NCBI GenBank assembly: GCA_007375535.1
Contig: VMEM01000003.1
Coordinates: 1-32,810, forward strand
Origin: Parcubacteria group bacterium LiPW_41
GTDB lineage: Bacteria; Patescibacteriota; Minisyncoccia; UBA6257; GWB1-50-10
Direction of reading: 5' to 3'
DNA length: 32,810 nt
The notes under the pieces are model-generated. The model was not told the DNA's origin and did no database searches. It saw nothing but the letters and a program-made list of their open reading frames with translations. This document shows positions 389 through 10,984 of the stretch, piece by piece. Within the stretch, counting starts at the first letter, position 1. Each line of letters opens with the position of its first letter. The position numbers and the translations under genes were made by a program.

Positions 389-484
389 TTTGTGCCCCCA
401 CTAGGATTTGCCTCTCCCTTCGGTCGAAACCTCATTACTTCGTAATTTCGGCCTTTGGTTCGAATCCTAGTAGAAAATAAAAAA
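389..484 (-). repeat. tRNA-Lys tail element: duplicated tRNA 3' end plus hairpins
   Basis: Read on the minus strand, this follows tRNA-Lys and its first terminator. Bases 389-408 are an exact 20-nt copy of 510-529, the tRNA 3' end plus its flank. Bases 457-471 are a 15-nt inverted copy of 521-535, the T arm. Between them lie small inverted repeats such as ATTAC/GTAAT around 435-447. No open reading frame explains it. Elements with the same layout follow tRNA-Arg and tRNA-Ala. The function is unknown; candidates are an att-site remnant, a mobile hairpin element, or a structured RNA tail. Confidence 0.7.
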
Positions 485-485
485 C

Positions 486-500
486 CCAAAACAAGTTTGG
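486..500 (-). terminator. First terminator of tRNA-Lys
   Basis: CCAAA (486-490) pairs with TTTGG (496-500). On the minus strand the hairpin is followed by a T-rich run (471-484). Confidence 0.65.
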
Positions 501-513
501 ATTTTTCATTTTG

Positions 514-587
514 TGCCCCCACTAGGATTCGAACCTAGGACCCACTGCTTAAAAGGCAGGTGCTCTACCAGGCTGAGCTATAGGGGC
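514..587 (-). tRNA. tRNA-Lys (anticodon TTT)
   Basis: On the minus strand it folds as a full cloverleaf: acceptor GCCCCTA/TGGGGGC with discriminator A, D stem GCTC/GAGC, anticodon loop CTTTTAA, and T stem CTAGG/CCTAG with loop TTCGAAT. The anticodon stem has a C-T mismatch at the 27-43 position. No CCA is encoded (the next bases are CAA), so the 3' end must be made by the CCA-adding enzyme encoded at 2200-3705. Confidence 0.95.
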
Positions 588-642
588 ATCAGACTTCACA
601 GTACAGCAAATTCAATTCTAAATTTTTTGCACTAAAAGTCAA

Positions 643-1512
643 CTATTCACTAATTGTGGCAAGAATTATGACCGCAACACAGGTAACGGCGATTCCGATA
701 TACTGGTGCCATTTCAATTTTTCTTTATTTAGAAATACTCCAAGAAGTGCACCAAATGCGATATAACTTTCGGTAATTCCTACCGCAATAGAAATTGGTA
801 GATAGGTTACCGAAAAAGCAAAAAATATCCAGGCGACATTATCGAGAATGCTTTGGCCGGTAATAATTCCAATATTTTCTTTTATTTCTTTAATTCCATT
901 TTTTAGTTGTCCACGTGTCAAAAGATATAACAAACAAAAGATTCCAAGAGAACCATGGATAAACCAAATAGAAATTAGAGGGGAGATGGTTTGACTCGCA
1001 ACACCAACAATGAAGTTTCCCAATCCCATTCCAATTGCTCCCATAATTGCCAACACAACACCACGTTCAAATATTCTTTTGTGATAGTGGAGATGTGTGT
1101 GATGTACGGTTATTGCAAGCATTATACCAACGAAAATAACACCAATAAGAATCATTTGAACGAGCGAAAGATATTCTCCCCAGATTCCTATACTCAAACC
1201 AAGAGAAACGGGAACCTCAAGTCCGTAGAGTGGTTCAACGATAGAAAATTTTCCGCGCCTTAATGCTTCAAAATCAAAAAGTGCAGCAGAAAACATTACT
1301 AATCCGCCAAGTGAGAGAATAATTAAATCACGAGACGAACTAAACAATGCTGGAATCTCTTTGTATATAAATGGACACAACACAATGAGCGCAACAATTC
1401 CGATGTACATGAGTGCTTTCATGCTTCCCACCCTTCTTACTGTTTTTTGAATAAGAAAATCTCCAAATGTCCAACTTATCATTGCACCAATCGCAAATAA
1501 AATTCCTTGCAT
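643..1512 (-). CDS. EamA/DMT-superfamily membrane transporter
   Basis: A 289-residue protein with about ten hydrophobic helices arranged as two halves of five. This is the drug/metabolite transporter layout, with helix starts such as GAMISWTFGDFLIQK in half one and GNFIVGVASQ in half two. The family moves small metabolites or drugs across the inner membrane; the substrate here cannot be read from sequence. A histidine-rich loop (HHTHLHYHK) joins the halves around residue 140, which is unusual and could bind a metal. The start is supported by a -10-like TACAAT (minus strand, 1525-1520) ending 7 bp before the ATG, with no Shine-Dalgarno, so the mRNA is probably leaderless. It is monocistronic, lying between tRNA-Lys and tRNA-Arg. 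EamA could also be annotated simply as a conserved membrane protein. Confidence 0.85.
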   Translation of the reverse strand: MQGILFAIGAMISWTFGDFLIQKTVRRVGSMKALMYIGIVALIVLCPFIYKEIPALFSSSRDLIILSLGGLVMFSAALFDFEALRRGKFSIVEPLYGLEVPVSLGLSIGIWGEYLSLVQMILIGVIFVGIMLAITVHHTHLHYHKRIFERGVVLAIMGAIGMGLGNFIVGVASQTISPLISIWFIHGSLGIFCLLYLLTRGQLKNGIKEIKENIGIITGQSILDNVAWIFFAFSVTYLPISIAVGITESYIAFGALLGVFLNKEKLKWHQYIGIAVTCVAVIILATISE

Positions 1513-1598
1513 ATATTTTATTGTATCGTATTTTCCAGAGATTTACTTTTTTTTAGTTATGTATACAATGGCTATTAAGGTCCATTTGAGAATAAATT

Positions 1599-1670
1599 GC
1601 CCCCGTAGTGAAATGGATATCATAACAGTCTTCGAAACTGTCGTTCCAAGTTCGAATCTTGGCGGGGGCA
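1599..1670 (+). tRNA. tRNA-Arg (anticodon TCG)
   Basis: The cloverleaf is complete: acceptor GCCCCCG/CGGGGGC with discriminator A, D stem GTGA/TCAT, anticodon stem ACAGT/ACTGT around loop CTTCGAA, and T stem CCAAG/CTTGG with loop TTCGAAT. The anticodon TCG reads CGA, CGG and related Arg codons depending on modification. CCA is not encoded (CAA follows). A possible -10 (TACAAT, 1564-1569) lies about 30 bp upstream. Confidence 0.95.
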
Positions 1671-1681
1671 CAAAATAAAAA

Positions 1682-1712
1682 CCCAAGTTTATCTTGGGAT
1701 TTTATTTTTTAC
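1682..1712 (+). terminator. First terminator of tRNA-Arg
   Basis: CCCAAG (1682-1687) pairs with CTTGGG (1693-1698), followed by a T-rich tract. Confidence 0.75.
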
Positions 1713-1845
1713 GCTAAAATTCGAACGGGAAAGGGGTCGGGAAAACGGGAGTTTTCCCGTGGTGGAGGTATTGGAACCGCACGGTTTCAAAAAATTTCGT
1801 CTGCGAAATTTTGTTCGATTCCTTGGCGGGGGCACAAAATAAAAA
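1713..1845 (+). repeat. tRNA-Arg tail element: hairpin array ending in a second tRNA 3' end
   Basis: After the first terminator comes ATTCGAAC, an inverted copy of the tRNA T loop. Three small hairpins follow: CGGGAAAAC/GTTTTCCCG near 1738-1759, AACCG/CGGTT near 1777-1788, and AAATTTCG/CGAAATTT near 1793-1812. Bases 1822-1845 then repeat 1658-1681 exactly over 24 nt: the last part of the tRNA plus 11 bases of its downstream flank. The copied T loop reads GTTCGATTC instead of GTTCGAATC. A second terminator follows at once. It has the same layout as the Lys and Ala elements. Confidence 0.7.
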
Positions 1846-1862
1846 GAGCCCAAATTGGGCTC
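1846..1862. terminator. Shared terminator of the tRNA-Arg tail and the convergent small gene
   Basis: GAGCCCAA and TTGGGCTC form an 8-bp stem around one base. The hairpin overlaps the stop codon of the minus-strand gene ending at 1861, so it can serve both directions. Confidence 0.7.
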
Positions 1863-2112
1863 ACATTTTGTTTAGCATTGGAGAGAGGCTGGATATAAGT
1901 GTGTCTATTTCGTTTAGAATTTTTTGGGCGGCAATCATAAATTCTGAGTCCTTCTTGTTTTTAAATGACTCTGTATTTTCGATTTTCTCTTTAATTTCTA
2001 AGAGTTTCTTTTTTGCAACCTTGTCTTCAATTTGTTGGTTTTCTATCTGGTTTCTTAAGGTTGCAACTTCCGAACTTCGGATGCTTTCAAAAAATTTTGT
2101 TGTATTGTCCAT
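1861..2112 (-). CDS. Small helical, probably coiled-coil protein of unknown function
   Basis: An 83-residue protein, rich in Glu, Lys, Ile and Asn, with no transmembrane segment or cysteines. The stretch from about residue 15 to 55 (NQIENQQIEDKVAKKKLLEI and what follows) looks like a heptad-type coiled coil. The start is unusually well supported for this genome: AAGGAGG ends 5 bases before the ATG, and upstream lies TTGACA (2168-2163), 17 bp, TAAAAT (2145-2140) on the minus strand. It is divergent from the CCA-adding enzyme gene, sharing its -35 region. I do not recognise the family. Gene-like composition and the strong translation signals are the main reasons for calling it. Confidence 0.7.
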   Translation of the reverse strand: MDNTTKFFESIRSSEVATLRNQIENQQIEDKVAKKKLLEIKEKIENTESFKNKKDSEFMIAAQKILNEIDTLISSLSPMLNKM

Positions 2113-2139
2113 TTGGACCTCCTTTTTAATGTTGAGCAG

Positions 2140-2190
2140 ATTTTAACCTCGAATATGATGTTTGTCAATGTGCAATATTTCTATTACAAT
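2140..2190. promoter_or_regulatory. Divergent promoters with overlapping -35 boxes
   Basis: Plus strand: TTGTCA (2162-2167), 17 bp, TACAAT (2185-2190), 9 bp before the ATG of the CCA-adding enzyme. Minus strand: TTGACA (2168-2163), 17 bp, TAAAAT (2145-2140), about 27 bp before the small gene at 2112. The -35 hexamers occupy the same base pairs, so the two polymerases should exclude each other. Confidence 0.7.
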
Positions 2191-2199
2191 ATAAAAAGA

Positions 2200-3705
2200 A
2201 TGAAAAAGATCCCGAATGAGGTTGAGGAGATAGCGAGAAAACTTGAAGTAGGTGGCTTCGAGGCGTTTCTTGTTGGGGGATGTTTGAGAGATATGATTTT
2301 GGGAGTGGTCCCAAAGGATTGGGATATTGCGACAAACGCAACTCCTGATCAAGTAGAGAAACTTTTTTATGACTTTGGTGGACGAACAAAAGAAGATCCC
2401 GCAACAGTATATGAAAATGAATTTGGTACTGTAGGAATAAAAACAGAATCAGATGATCCAACCCTTAAAATTATTGAGGTAACAACGTATCGCATCGAGG
2501 GGAAGTATTCAGATGTGCGCCATCCAGATGAGGTACGATTTGCAAAGACAATTGAAGAAGATTTAAGTAGGCGAGATTTTACCATTAACGCAATTGCACT
2601 ATCACTTACTAATGCAATTCAGAATAAAAAAATAGAAAGCCAACTCATTGATCCTTATAATGGACTCAGTGATATTTCAGCAAAAATAATTCGTACTGTT
2701 GGAAATCCTGATAAGCGATTTACTGAAGATGCGCTTCGCTTAATGCGTGCTGTTCGGTTCTCTGCACAACTTGGTTTTTCTATTGAAGAAAAGACACAAG
2801 AAGCAATTCGTTTGCACGCAGGACTTTTGGATGTAATTGCAAAGGAGCGAATTCGTGATGAGTTTACAAAACTTATAATGACTGATCGTGCAGCGGAGGG
2901 GATTGTTGTAATGGAAGATACGGGATTATTAAAATATGTAATTCCAGAATTGAGAGAGGGAATTGGGTGTGGGCAGAACAAGCATCATATCTATACTGTA
3001 TTTGATCATAATGTTCGCGCGCTTAATTATGCTGTTGAAAAGGGATATTCACTTGAAGTGCGTTTGGGTGCCTTGCTTCACGATGTGGGAAAACCAAAAA
3101 CGAAACGAGGCGAAGGAATTGATTCAACGTTCCATGGACACGAAGTTGTTGGAGGAAAGATGACTGCAAAAATTATGGATCGATTGCGGTTTTCGAAAGA
3201 TGTTACCGAAAAAGTAATTCATCTTGTTCGATATCATTTGTTTTATTACAACGTAGGTGAGGTGAGTGAGGCGGGCGTGCGAAGATTTATCAGTCGTGTG
3301 GGAATTGAAATGGTTGATGATTTATTAAAGATTAGAGAAGCGGATAGAATCGGTTCGGGAGTTCCAAAAGCGTTTCCATACAAGTTGCGACATCTTCAAT
3401 TTATGATTGAAAAGGTTCGTCATGATCCGGTGCATCCAAAGATGTTGAAGTTAAATGGAAATGAGCTGATGGAATTGCTTAATATAAAACCAAGTAGGCG
3501 AGTGGGGTGCATTCTTTCCATTCTTTTAGAGGAGGTGCTTGACGATCCAACACGAAATACAAAAGAATACCTTGAGAAACGCGCAAAGGAGTTACAAGTT
3601 CACGACGATGTTGCATTAAATGAACTTTCTCGAAAAGCACAGGAGGTAAAAGAAGAATTTGAATCGGGAGTAGAGGATGAAATGAAAAAGAAGTATAAAG
3701 TGTAA
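2200..3705 (+). CDS. cca: CCA-adding enzyme (tRNA nucleotidyltransferase) with HD domain
   Basis: A 501-residue class II nucleotidyltransferase that adds or repairs the 3' CCA of tRNAs. The catalytic head has GGCLRD at residues 26-31 and the metal-binding DWD at 40-42. The arginine-rich DLSRRDFTINAIA block and the EDALRLMRAVRFSAQLGF block are the ATP/CTP-recognition and neck motifs. A C-terminal HD phosphohydrolase domain follows (HH near 262, LLHDVGKPK near 290, HGHE near 315), as in many bacterial Cca enzymes. I chose ATG 2200 because it lies 9 bp after a -10 box; the longer upstream frame would start before the promoter. It fits its setting, since none of the four tRNA genes nearby encodes CCA. 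A strong hairpin terminator follows. Confidence 0.95.
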   Translation: MKKIPNEVEEIARKLEVGGFEAFLVGGCLRDMILGVVPKDWDIATNATPDQVEKLFYDFGGRTKEDPATVYENEFGTVGIKTESDDPTLKIIEVTTYRIEGKYSDVRHPDEVRFAKTIEEDLSRRDFTINAIALSLTNAIQNKKIESQLIDPYNGLSDISAKIIRTVGNPDKRFTEDALRLMRAVRFSAQLGFSIEEKTQEAIRLHAGLLDVIAKERIRDEFTKLIMTDRAAEGIVVMEDTGLLKYVIPELREGIGCGQNKHHIYTVFDHNVRALNYAVEKGYSLEVRLGALLHDVGKPKTKRGEGIDSTFHGHEVVGGKMTAKIMDRLRFSKDVTEKVIHLVRYHLFYYNVGEVSEAGVRRFISRVGIEMVDDLLKIREADRIGSGVPKAFPYKLRHLQFMIEKVRHDPVHPKMLKLNGNELMELLNIKPSRRVGCILSILLEEVLDDPTRNTKEYLEKRAKELQVHDDVALNELSRKAQEVKEEFESGVEDEMKKKYKV

Positions 3706-3712
3706 AAATAGA

Positions 3713-3740
3713 ACCCCGCCAATCCATGGATTGGCGGGGT
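3713..3740. terminator. Terminator after cca, shared with the tRNA-Ala tail
   Basis: ACCCCGCCAATCC pairs with GGATTGGCGGGGT in a near-perfect G+C-rich palindrome. A/T-rich sequence flanks it on both strands. It also forms the second terminator of the minus-strand tRNA-Ala unit. Confidence 0.85.
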
Positions 3741-3743
3741 CTC

Positions 3744-3893
3744 TTTGTGGACCTAGGCAGAATCTCCCGCACCTCTCAGTCGTGCCGTCGCACTCCTTCG
3801 GGTTGGGCACCGCCTCACGTGCTCGTTTGCTAACTCGCACATGCTCCGGCGTTCGATTCTCCGCGCGAAACAAGCAGTTGTTTCGCTTAGGTC
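3744..3893 (-). repeat. tRNA-Ala tail element: duplicated tRNA 3' end plus hairpins
   Basis: Bases 3744-3764 copy 3928-3948 exactly (21 nt): the tRNA-Ala 3' end and its flank. Bases 3851-3860 (GTTCGATTCT) are an inverted copy of the T loop and stem at 3944-3953. A partial inverted acceptor (CTTAGGTC, 3886-3893) is separated from it by a hairpin, GCGAAACAA/TTGTTTCGC (3865-3886). The middle is noticeably more G+C-rich than the surroundings and contains further short inverted repeats. Nothing coding is evident. Confidence 0.7.
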
Positions 3894-3896
3894 AAA

Positions 3897-3925
3897 AATA
3901 AAAACATCAAGACGATGTTTTTATT
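3897..3925 (-). terminator. First terminator of the tRNA-Pro/tRNA-Ala unit
   Basis: AAAACATC (3901-3908) pairs with GATGTTTT (3914-3921). On the minus strand it is followed by a T-rich tract. Confidence 0.7.
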
Positions 3926-3931
3926 TATTTG

Positions 3932-4002
3932 TGGACCTAGGCAGAATCGAACTGCCGTCTCGGCAATGCGAATGCCGCGTTCTACCACTGAACCATAGGC
4001 CC
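3932..4002 (-). tRNA. tRNA-Ala (anticodon CGC)
   Basis: Acceptor GGGCCTA/TAGGTCC contains the G3-U70 wobble pair that identifies alanine tRNA, with discriminator A. Anticodon stem CGGCA/TGCCG surrounds loop TTCGCAT, and T stem GGCAG/CTGCC has loop TTCGATT. No CCA is encoded. It lies 6 bp downstream of tRNA-Pro, so the two are surely co-transcribed. Confidence 0.95.
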
Positions 4003-10285: not shown

Positions 10286-10984
10286 ATGAGGGAAAATTTT
10301 GTGAATGGGAAAATTTATCATCTCTACAACAGGGGAGTCGACAAGCGTCCCATTGTTCGTGATGATCACGATCATTTTCGTTTCATACATTCATTATTTG
10401 AGTTTAATAATGAAAATCAATCTGTTCCACACCTTCACCGACAATTGTCCGAGGTCGGACCTCGGACAATTGGACGGAATAGGGAACCGAGGAAGCTCTT
10501 GGTGGATTTGATTGCGTTTTGTTTGATGGATAACCATTATCACTTAATGGTGAGACAACGAGTTGATGGAGGAATAAGTAAATTTGTTCAGAAGTTTGGC
10601 ACTGGGTATACAATGTATTTCAATGAAAAGCATGAACGATCTGGTGTATTATTTCAGGGGAAATTTAAGTCAGTTTTAGTAAGCGATGATTCGCAATTTA
10701 ATTTTCTTCCATTTTATATTCATGCAAATCCACTTGATAAGAAATTTAAAGAGTGGAGAAGTAAAGAAATGAAGAATCCAAAACAAGCAATAGAATTTTT
10801 GAAAGAATACCGATGGAGTAGTCTTCCTGATTATGTTGGAGTGAAAAACTTTCCATCGGTTACACAACGGGAATTATTACTCGAGTATTTTGAAGGGGAG
10901 AAGGGGATGGAGAAAGCACTTATACAATGGCTAAAAAATATGAACGAGGATTGGAGCGAAAGAAAACATATTACATTTGAATAA
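10286..10984 (+). CDS. REP-associated tyrosine (Y1/HUH) transposase
   Basis: A 232-residue single-strand DNA transposase of the RAYT/IS200-like group. Opening motif YHLYNRGVDKRPI; the HUH metal motif is HYH in CLMDNHYHLMV near residue 86. The conserved block VQKFGTGYTMYFNEKHERSG contains the likely nucleophilic tyrosine, and LFQGKFKS follows. Such enzymes cut and rejoin palindromic REP sequences. TATAAT (10272-10277) ends 8 bp before the ATG, so the mRNA is probably leaderless. Unusually, a perfect 31-bp palindrome (10442-10472) lies within the gene and is read in frame as QLSEVGPRTIG, in a region variable among relatives. A second copy follows the stop codon. Confidence 0.9.
   Translation: MRENFVNGKIYHLYNRGVDKRPIVRDDHDHFRFIHSLFEFNNENQSVPHLHRQLSEVGPRTIGRNREPRKLLVDLIAFCLMDNHYHLMVRQRVDGGISKFVQKFGTGYTMYFNEKHERSGVLFQGKFKSVLVSDDSQFNFLPFYIHANPLDKKFKEWRSKEMKNPKQAIEFLKEYRWSSLPDYVGVKNFPSVTQRELLLEYFEGEKGMEKALIQWLKNMNEDWSERKHITFE
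10442..10472. repeat. REP-like palindrome inside the transposase gene
   Basis: Two 15-bp arms beginning CAATTGTCCGAGGTC mirror perfectly around a single G. The frame of the transposase stays open through it. It is identical in its 31-bp core to 10989-11019. Confidence 0.9.

Follow-up and report, generated by a model that had tools for sequence, protein, structure and literature searches.

Short hairpin-rich elements with target-copied ends behind tRNA genes of Parcubacteria: a probable family of non-coding mobile DNA

The window, by which we mean the whole stretch of DNA that was analysed, comprises 32,810 nt of contig VMEM01000003.1 from Parcubacteria group bacterium LiPW_41 (the source genome; 747 kb). 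It holds three loci at which a tRNA gene, detected with ARAGORN and Rfam RF00005, is followed by a hairpin-rich element and then by a second copy of the tRNA's own 3' end. The repeats described in an earlier note on this DNA were confirmed as exact and maximal: 389-408 = 510-529 (20 nt, 3' end of tRNA-Lys (TTT)), 1658-1681 = 1822-1845 (24 nt, tRNA-Arg (TCG)) and 3744-3764 = 3928-3948 (21 nt, tRNA-Ala (CGC)). That note saw stacked small hairpins between the copies; the DNA is indeed rich in hairpins, although the description was incomplete in that an inverted copy of the T-loop and T-stem of the tRNA had been overlooked. We refer to the tRNA 3' end as X1, to the inverted T-arm copy as X', to the second sense copy as X2 and to a small perfect hairpin found in some elements as HP1. 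Three of four core families are seen in the window (family 2 at Lys, family 1 at Arg and family 4 at Ala); covariance models R1 and R2 represent families 4 and 1 respectively. The features are:

513..587, minus strand: tRNA-Lys (TTT), target gene 1 (ARAGORN, Rfam RF00005)
510..529, minus strand: X1, tRNA-Lys 3' end plus CACAAA flank, the part present twice (exact repeat)
474..509, minus strand: terminator-like hairpin separating tRNA-Lys from the element (direct sequence reading)
457..473, minus strand: X', inverted tRNA-Lys T-arm, CTACTAGGATTCGAACC, 15 nt exact antisense (antisense match, anatomy)
409..456, minus strand: hairpin-rich core of the tRNA-Lys element, family 2 (sequence comparison by eye)
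389..408, minus strand: X2, second sense copy of the tRNA-Lys 3' end, 20 nt (exact repeat)
1599..1671, plus strand: tRNA-Arg (TCG), target gene 2 (ARAGORN, Rfam RF00005)
1658..1681, plus strand: X1, tRNA-Arg 3' end plus flank (exact repeat)
1674..1711, plus strand: terminator-like hairpin after tRNA-Arg (sequence)
1713..1726, plus strand: X', antisense T-loop GCTAAAATTCGAAC, partly diverged from the local tRNA-Arg (antisense match, anatomy)
1720..1822, plus strand: core of the tRNA-Arg element, family 1 (model R2 match, 117.7 bits)
1822..1845, plus strand: X2, second copy of the tRNA-Arg 3' end, 24 nt (exact repeat)
3931..4002, minus strand: tRNA-Ala (CGC), last of the Pro-Ala unit, target gene 3 (ARAGORN, Rfam RF00005)
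3928..3948, minus strand: X1, tRNA-Ala 3' end plus flank (exact repeat)
3895..3927, minus strand: terminator-like hairpin after tRNA-Ala (sequence)
3865..3886, minus strand: HP1, perfect 9-bp hairpin GCGAAACAACTGCTTGTTTCGC, preceded by a partial antisense acceptor (GACCTA) (anatomy)
3851..3863, minus strand: X', inverted tRNA-Ala T-arm, CGGAGAATCGAAC (antisense match, anatomy)
3760..3856, minus strand: core of the tRNA-Ala element, family 4 (model R1 match, 66.3 bits)
3744..3764, minus strand: X2, second copy of the tRNA-Ala 3' end, 21 nt (exact repeat)
3712..3742, minus strand: second terminator-like hairpin, after the tRNA-Ala X2 (sequence)

Along the strand of the tRNA the order of parts is the tRNA (ending in X1), CACAAA, usually a terminator-like hairpin, X', a structured core and X2; family 4 elements often add a partial antisense acceptor and a perfect HP1 ahead of X'. 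X' is the antisense of the T-loop and of the 3' strand of the T-stem, in the common case GGANTCGAAC, and X' and X2 are able to pair, forming an outer stem around the core. Among 45 elements from four genomes, the antisense match to the element's own tRNA averaged 9.5 nt versus 6.1 nt for other tRNAs (0 of 300 permutations); antisense of the terminal acceptor bases was present in 6 of the 45, which is not clearly above the background of 7.5%. Tandem duplication of the tRNA was rejected as a source of the copies, given that the left arm is antisense, T-loop included, and does not copy the tRNA 5' strand. The elements are about 85–220 bp long, non-coding and always in one orientation relative to their target, with approximately 100–200 bp of non-coding DNA and no genes or integrase between the two copies in almost all loci.

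The second copy starts at T-loop base 57 (17 loci) or base 56 (28 loci) in 45 of the 55 loci with a good copy, and in the base-56 loci the core itself often ends in C as well. X2 extends to base 74 or further in 53 of the 55. Its left boundary is sharp and its right boundary shows a sharp minimum with a tail; the duplicated target is at least 18 nt (base 57 to at least base 74), leaving the tRNA whole. A fixed target duplication of 18 nt was rejected, as longer copies at the protein genes topA and rpsR (see below) make this length a minimum. This minimum falls at the functional end of the tRNA and may therefore be set by selection against shorter, tRNA-breaking duplications. A variant layout with the joint at the tRNA 3' terminus was seen in Kaiserbacteria and relatives (L247, L252, L256, L258, L262 and L253; L numbers denote DNA stretches read and G numbers genomes, G000 being the source genome), in which the tRNA end with its flank and the inverted copy make a nearly perfect long hairpin before the same core. 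In one Yanofskybacteria stretch (L226, ~2100-2384) a tRNA-Ser is apparently interrupted in the T-loop by an element, with its 3' end beyond, as a broken gene or an intron-like state.

To survey the source genome, flanks were gathered for all 43 tRNA genes detected and for a tRNA-Phe that is split by a ~212-nt intron in the anticodon arm, probably of group I, with the element still 3' of the gene (L086 335-619, G000:C2:15335-15619; also L084 and L085). Elements follow 26 of the 37 last-of-unit tRNAs (24 with a recognisable right copy and two degenerate), and non-terminal tRNAs of a unit never have one of their own. The 11 units without an element are Val-cac, Cys, Trp, Arg-tct, Gln-ttg, Gln-ctg, Glu-ctc, Ala-ggc, His (L048), Leu-tag and Leu-cag. 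The earlier note had claimed the layout for every tRNA unit, a claim that was to fall if other tRNA genes of the genome lacked it: it holds in the window and, with all flanks inspected for self-copies, across much of the genome, but in its strong form it fails. There are at least four core families. Grouping by covariance model placed, among others, the Asp, His, Glu, Leu-gag, Tyr, Thr-cgt, Ala-cgc and Phe cores in family 4 and those of Arg-tcg, Val-gac, Ser-cga and Ala-tgc in family 1; by eye, family 2 includes Lys, Pro-tgg, Ser-gga and Gly-ccc, and family 5 one Met, Arg-gcg and Gly-tcc. Recurrence of the tRNA 3' end (at least 12 nt within 400 bp) was found in 19 of 44 own flanks compared with 5 of 1830 mismatched tRNA/downstream pairs, and a chance origin of the copies was rejected on these figures. 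An assembly artefact, also raised in the earlier note, is very unlikely because the layout recurs across many independent assemblies.

Comparison of cores between tRNAs and between genomes pointed to movement. For 49 cores from four genomes, the nearest neighbour lay in the same genome in 30 cases, a figure inflated by elements counted twice where tRNAs adjoin, and behind a tRNA of the same isotype in only five. The cleanest pair is that behind Pro-cgg and Pro-tgg of genome G016, where the cores are 97% identical and HP1 is nearly the same, and where X' and X2 each match their own tRNA; similarly, the Val-tac and Arg-tcg cores of G029 are 98.7% identical with each X2 being that of its own tRNA. 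Because near-identical cores carry the ends of their own tRNAs, the core appears to travel while the arms are local. Arrays and decayed units were also found: tandem units with different cores follow Arg-tct in G016 (the third incomplete within the stretch read); a truncated extra unit ends the locus at Arg-gcg and Arg-ccg of G000, Gly-gcc and Lys-ttt of G034 and Ala-ggc of G029; and remnants lie at Leu-gag of G029 and Gly-gcc of G016 where a sister genome has a fuller element. Mobility is well supported by these comparisons, as distinct from being seen directly.

The elements are common yet patchy. Among 59 sampled relatives, model R1 matched in 21, with 1 to 22 copies each, and model R2 in 36; in a wider sample of 380 genomes from the phylum, R1 matched in 18. 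In four R1-negative relatives, 4 of 50 last-of-unit tRNAs had a copy. A pattern scan of a species-genome collection gave, among the matches listed, Kaiser-, Yanofsky-, Magasanik-, Uhr-, Nomura-, Falkow-, Komeili-, Ryan-, Moran- and Saccharibacteria, others, and Elusimicrobia; the two Elusimicrobia loci that were inspected both lie 3' of tRNAs. A pattern scan of viral contigs gave a single match, in apparent coding sequence.

A detected tRNA lay directly upstream in 62 of the 81 pattern matches listed, and several of the others were tRNAs that went undetected or ran off the end of the stretch. Five of the 81, however, were at protein genes, named from their translated C-termini: topA (L204), rpsR (L217 and L271) and rpsI (L224 and L264). 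At these loci the second copy is the coding 3' end of that gene. The topA copy is identical for 33 nt and then diverges, yet it still reads KTIPERCSNKTCPNHNPHKKGK-stop versus KTIPERCSNKSCANHNPHKREKK-stop in the gene; in rpsR (L271) every difference within LLPYIQK-stop is synonymous; and the K-R-stop codons of rpsI differ synonymously in both stretches, although for the L264 copy a gap of one base has to be placed immediately before them. A likeness to a T-loop is seen in the rpsI target, GGTCGAAAC, but not in those of topA and rpsR. The second copies at protein genes were once coding, which would fit homologous recombination that exchanges element-bearing alleles among strains, or the integration of an element bringing a replacement end. 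Under either origin these targets are a misfit for a function in tRNA processing, and they favour insertion with duplication of the target.

Covariation supports the core structure: 15 of 25 pairs covary in the eight family-4 cores of the source genome, and across 86 distinct cores, drawn mostly from relatives, pairing holds in 90% of cells compared with 56.5% in shuffles, a one-column slide of the structure abolishing the pairing. HP1 is perfect in 84 of the 86 with no G.T among 785 pairs, while tRNA stems of the same genomes contain 82 G.U and three A.C in 1884 pairs. Because HP1 lacks G.T where the tRNA stems hold G.U, it would seem to be maintained at the level of DNA, template switching in quasi-palindromes being one possible way. 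A DNA-level verdict for all hairpins (56 G.U versus 61 A.C) was dropped, being partly alignment noise; on locally found hairpins it applies to HP1 only. Core hairpins hold 18 G.T versus four A.C, some of them in orthologous copies, as would fit RNA or a folded single strand, and the core may act as RNA or as strand-specific single-stranded DNA. In the window only the tRNA family of Rfam reached its gathering score, and for the cores no core-covering match below E=1 attained a family cut-off.

Four enzyme classes were searched for among the relatives. Tyrosine recombinases do not track the elements (G015 has none despite six R1 matches, and G000 has one in all), nor do reverse transcriptases; RAYT/Y1 transposases (PF01797) are absent from the element-rich G016, G029, G015, G007, G025 and G032; and Cas1 (PF01867) gave no match in the 59 relatives, element-rich ones included, a result that covers these assemblies and not an absent plasmid. 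A RAYT-like Y1 transposase gene (PF01797) does lie at 10286-10984 of the window, the sole one in the source genome, and shows no tracking of elements; a reverse transcriptase gene (PF00078) at G000:C6:102787-103395 (L331) has counterparts in only some element-bearing relatives. In four genomes (stretches L392, L113, L315 and L294) a large serine recombinase gene lies immediately 3' of tRNA-Ala, -Val, -Glu or -Leu, in convergent orientation to it. The L392 gene (G016:C6:8663-10159; PF00239 and PF07508) is flanked by an inverted repeat of ~100 bp and splits tRNA-Ala from its hairpin element. These units appear to be separate insertions of their own. An 'autonomous' element based on serine recombinase was rejected, because L392 proved to be a nested insertion and the 'core' of L315 a motif occurring by chance within coding sequence.

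Taken together, we think it probable that these are a family of short, non-coding, hairpin-rich mobile elements whose ends are rewritten to match each target. The mobile hairpin element offered as one option in the earlier note was in this sense well aimed (cores common to different tRNAs, a patchy distribution, tandem and decayed units and target-copied ends), although its qualification as tRNA-specific does not strictly hold, given the copies of topA, rpsR and rpsI coding ends. The elements would insert, always in one orientation, at tRNA gene 3' ends and now and then at those of other conserved genes, with the joint in the T-loop just before base 57 and with duplication of the target to give X1 and X2, so that the tRNA is kept whole. 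The core, together with HP1 in the cleanest pair, would move and both arms come to match the new target. Hairpin-directed template switching, during insertion or later, would rewrite the inverted arm, and the gene ends may afterwards be kept or swapped through gene conversion and through homologous exchange among strains. X' could have served as a guide to the target and been corrected later, or fold-back synthesis may have copied it from the target as insertion took place. It looks to be templated by the intact target and not by X2, because it includes about four bases (GTTC in tRNAs) lying upstream of the joint. A more specific version, in which the antisense T-arm, as folded single-stranded DNA or RNA, guides the joint to base 56/57 and the target is copied in both orientations with dissimilar cores and an enzyme in trans, is a tentative proposal that we regard as possible but doubtful. 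Every element would then hold a guide to its own site, and the family would be a new class of mobile nucleic acid, part of which is rewritten each time it inserts. Several observations weigh against a mobile family: none of the four enzyme classes tracks the elements and no element copy with a gene of its own was found; 26 occupied units out of 37 are many for a parasite; same-genus comparisons yielded only remnants and no clean pair of filled and empty sites; the topA second copy is a diverged allele rather than a fresh duplicate; and the excess of G.T in core hairpins is noted above.

The classic pattern of attachment (att) sites is a direct repeat of the gene 3' end by which the gene is restored, and the elements might be scars left by tyrosine or serine integrases acting at gene 3' ends, with the genes lost and the core a conserved attachment-site structure. 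The topA, rpsR and rpsI copies, which differ mostly or only synonymously as with a replacement end, and the serine recombinase genes directly behind tRNA 3' ends would fit this account. We nevertheless consider it unlikely. Only about 100–200 bp separate the copies in nearly all loci, and deletion would leave neither conserved structured cores nor a copy of the target in inverted orientation; one core family occurs at many unrelated targets of a single genome with local ends, while the att site of an integrase is sequence-specific; G015 has its six R1 matches and no tyrosine recombinase match; and the serine recombinase units appear to be separate insertions, the one in G016 having split a tRNA from a hairpin element. 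The suggestion in the earlier note of remnants of integration at tRNA att sites was right in its direction, in that the ends are copied from the target, but the scar of an integrase island is disfavoured.

If the element instead formed a regulatory RNA tail, the antisense T-arm of a read-through transcript would pair with the tRNA or with the second copy and so control 3' processing or act as a decoy. Mutually exclusive X1:X' and X':X2 pairings are possible from the sequence, the core structure is conserved with G.T above A.C in its hairpins, and most units of the source genome have an element; yet the same element stands at topA, rpsR and rpsI with copies of coding ends, it is missing from 11 of the 37 units and from most tRNAs sampled in relatives, it usually lies behind a terminator-like hairpin, HP1 has no wobble pairs, and no Rfam family matches the element. 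We hold such a role to be very improbable, and the decoy for RNase Z or the CCA enzyme proposed in the earlier note likewise misfits the protein-gene targets, the empty units and the scarcity in four relatives. It is also highly unlikely that no dedicated machinery is involved, with local template switching making the copies and cores spreading passively by microhomology and by homologous recombination after natural transformation. The joint inside the universal GTTCGANTCC segment, the perfect inverted repeats without wobble pairs (the expected trace of template switching), the T-loop-like rpsI target GGTCGAAAC and the lack of a tracking enzyme would all suit that explanation, but the topA and rpsR targets are unlike a T-loop, the joint is sharp, and dissimilar core groups use the same joint, suggesting a common enzyme or rule.

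Small non-autonomous mobile elements are already a known kind; what none of the families tested shares is ends that are target-derived and re-made in both orientations. Target sites of casposons overlap the 3' ends of tRNA genes and of the aEF-2 gene, with duplications that leave the gene intact (PMC4046053), and target duplication at the 3' ends of tRNA or protein genes is thus common to both; casposons, however, are multi-kilobase, encode Cas1 and PolB and have terminal inverted repeats of their own, whereas our elements have no genes and target-copied ends, with no Cas1 in the 59 genomes. Miniature inverted-repeat transposable elements (MITEs) and the repetitive extragenic palindromes (REPs) mobilised with RAYT are likewise short, non-coding, hairpin-forming, present in many copies per genome and patchy between relatives. 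MITEs differ in having fixed inverted repeats of their own and short target duplications, by comparison with an X'/X2 repeat that is the local target and varies between near-identical cores; REPs depend on RAYT, which does not track the elements. Integron arrays and their attC sites resemble the elements in their folded, single-strand-like sites and in the tandem array of different units at one anchor (Arg-tct of G016), but here the units hold no cassette genes, require no integrase and are separated by a repeat of the local tRNA 3' end. The integrase result would permit clusters of attC sites lacking integron integrases (CALIN); by eye, the arms of the elements are T-arm sequence without GTTRRRY boxes. 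Genomic islands at tRNA attachment sites leave partial tRNA fragments (PMC9897764) and so resemble the elements in that the tRNA 3' end recurs downstream of the gene; our copies, however, enclose no island but a conserved, structured core and the target in inverted copy. The statement in the earlier note that no named family fits has stood, in that there was no Rfam match and no description of such elements was found in the open-access literature (subscription papers lay beyond the search).

If this reading is true, the Patescibacteria, and with them some Elusimicrobia, harbour at unbroken tRNA 3' ends a widespread and unnamed class of minimal mobile element, which occupies most tRNA units of some streamlined genomes, copies its ends from the host gene and would be mobilised by a mechanism unmatched by the transposon, integron or attachment-site families tested here. 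It would also provide a system in which to test how mobile DNA is tolerated by very small genomes. The elements may further explain assembly breaks at tRNA genes in some metagenome-assembled genomes, and tRNA-end fragments that annotation tools could misread. In G034, contigs C5, C6, C11, C16, C20 and C28 have an end no more than a few hundred bases from a tRNA gene, as if repeats behind tRNAs broke the assembly.

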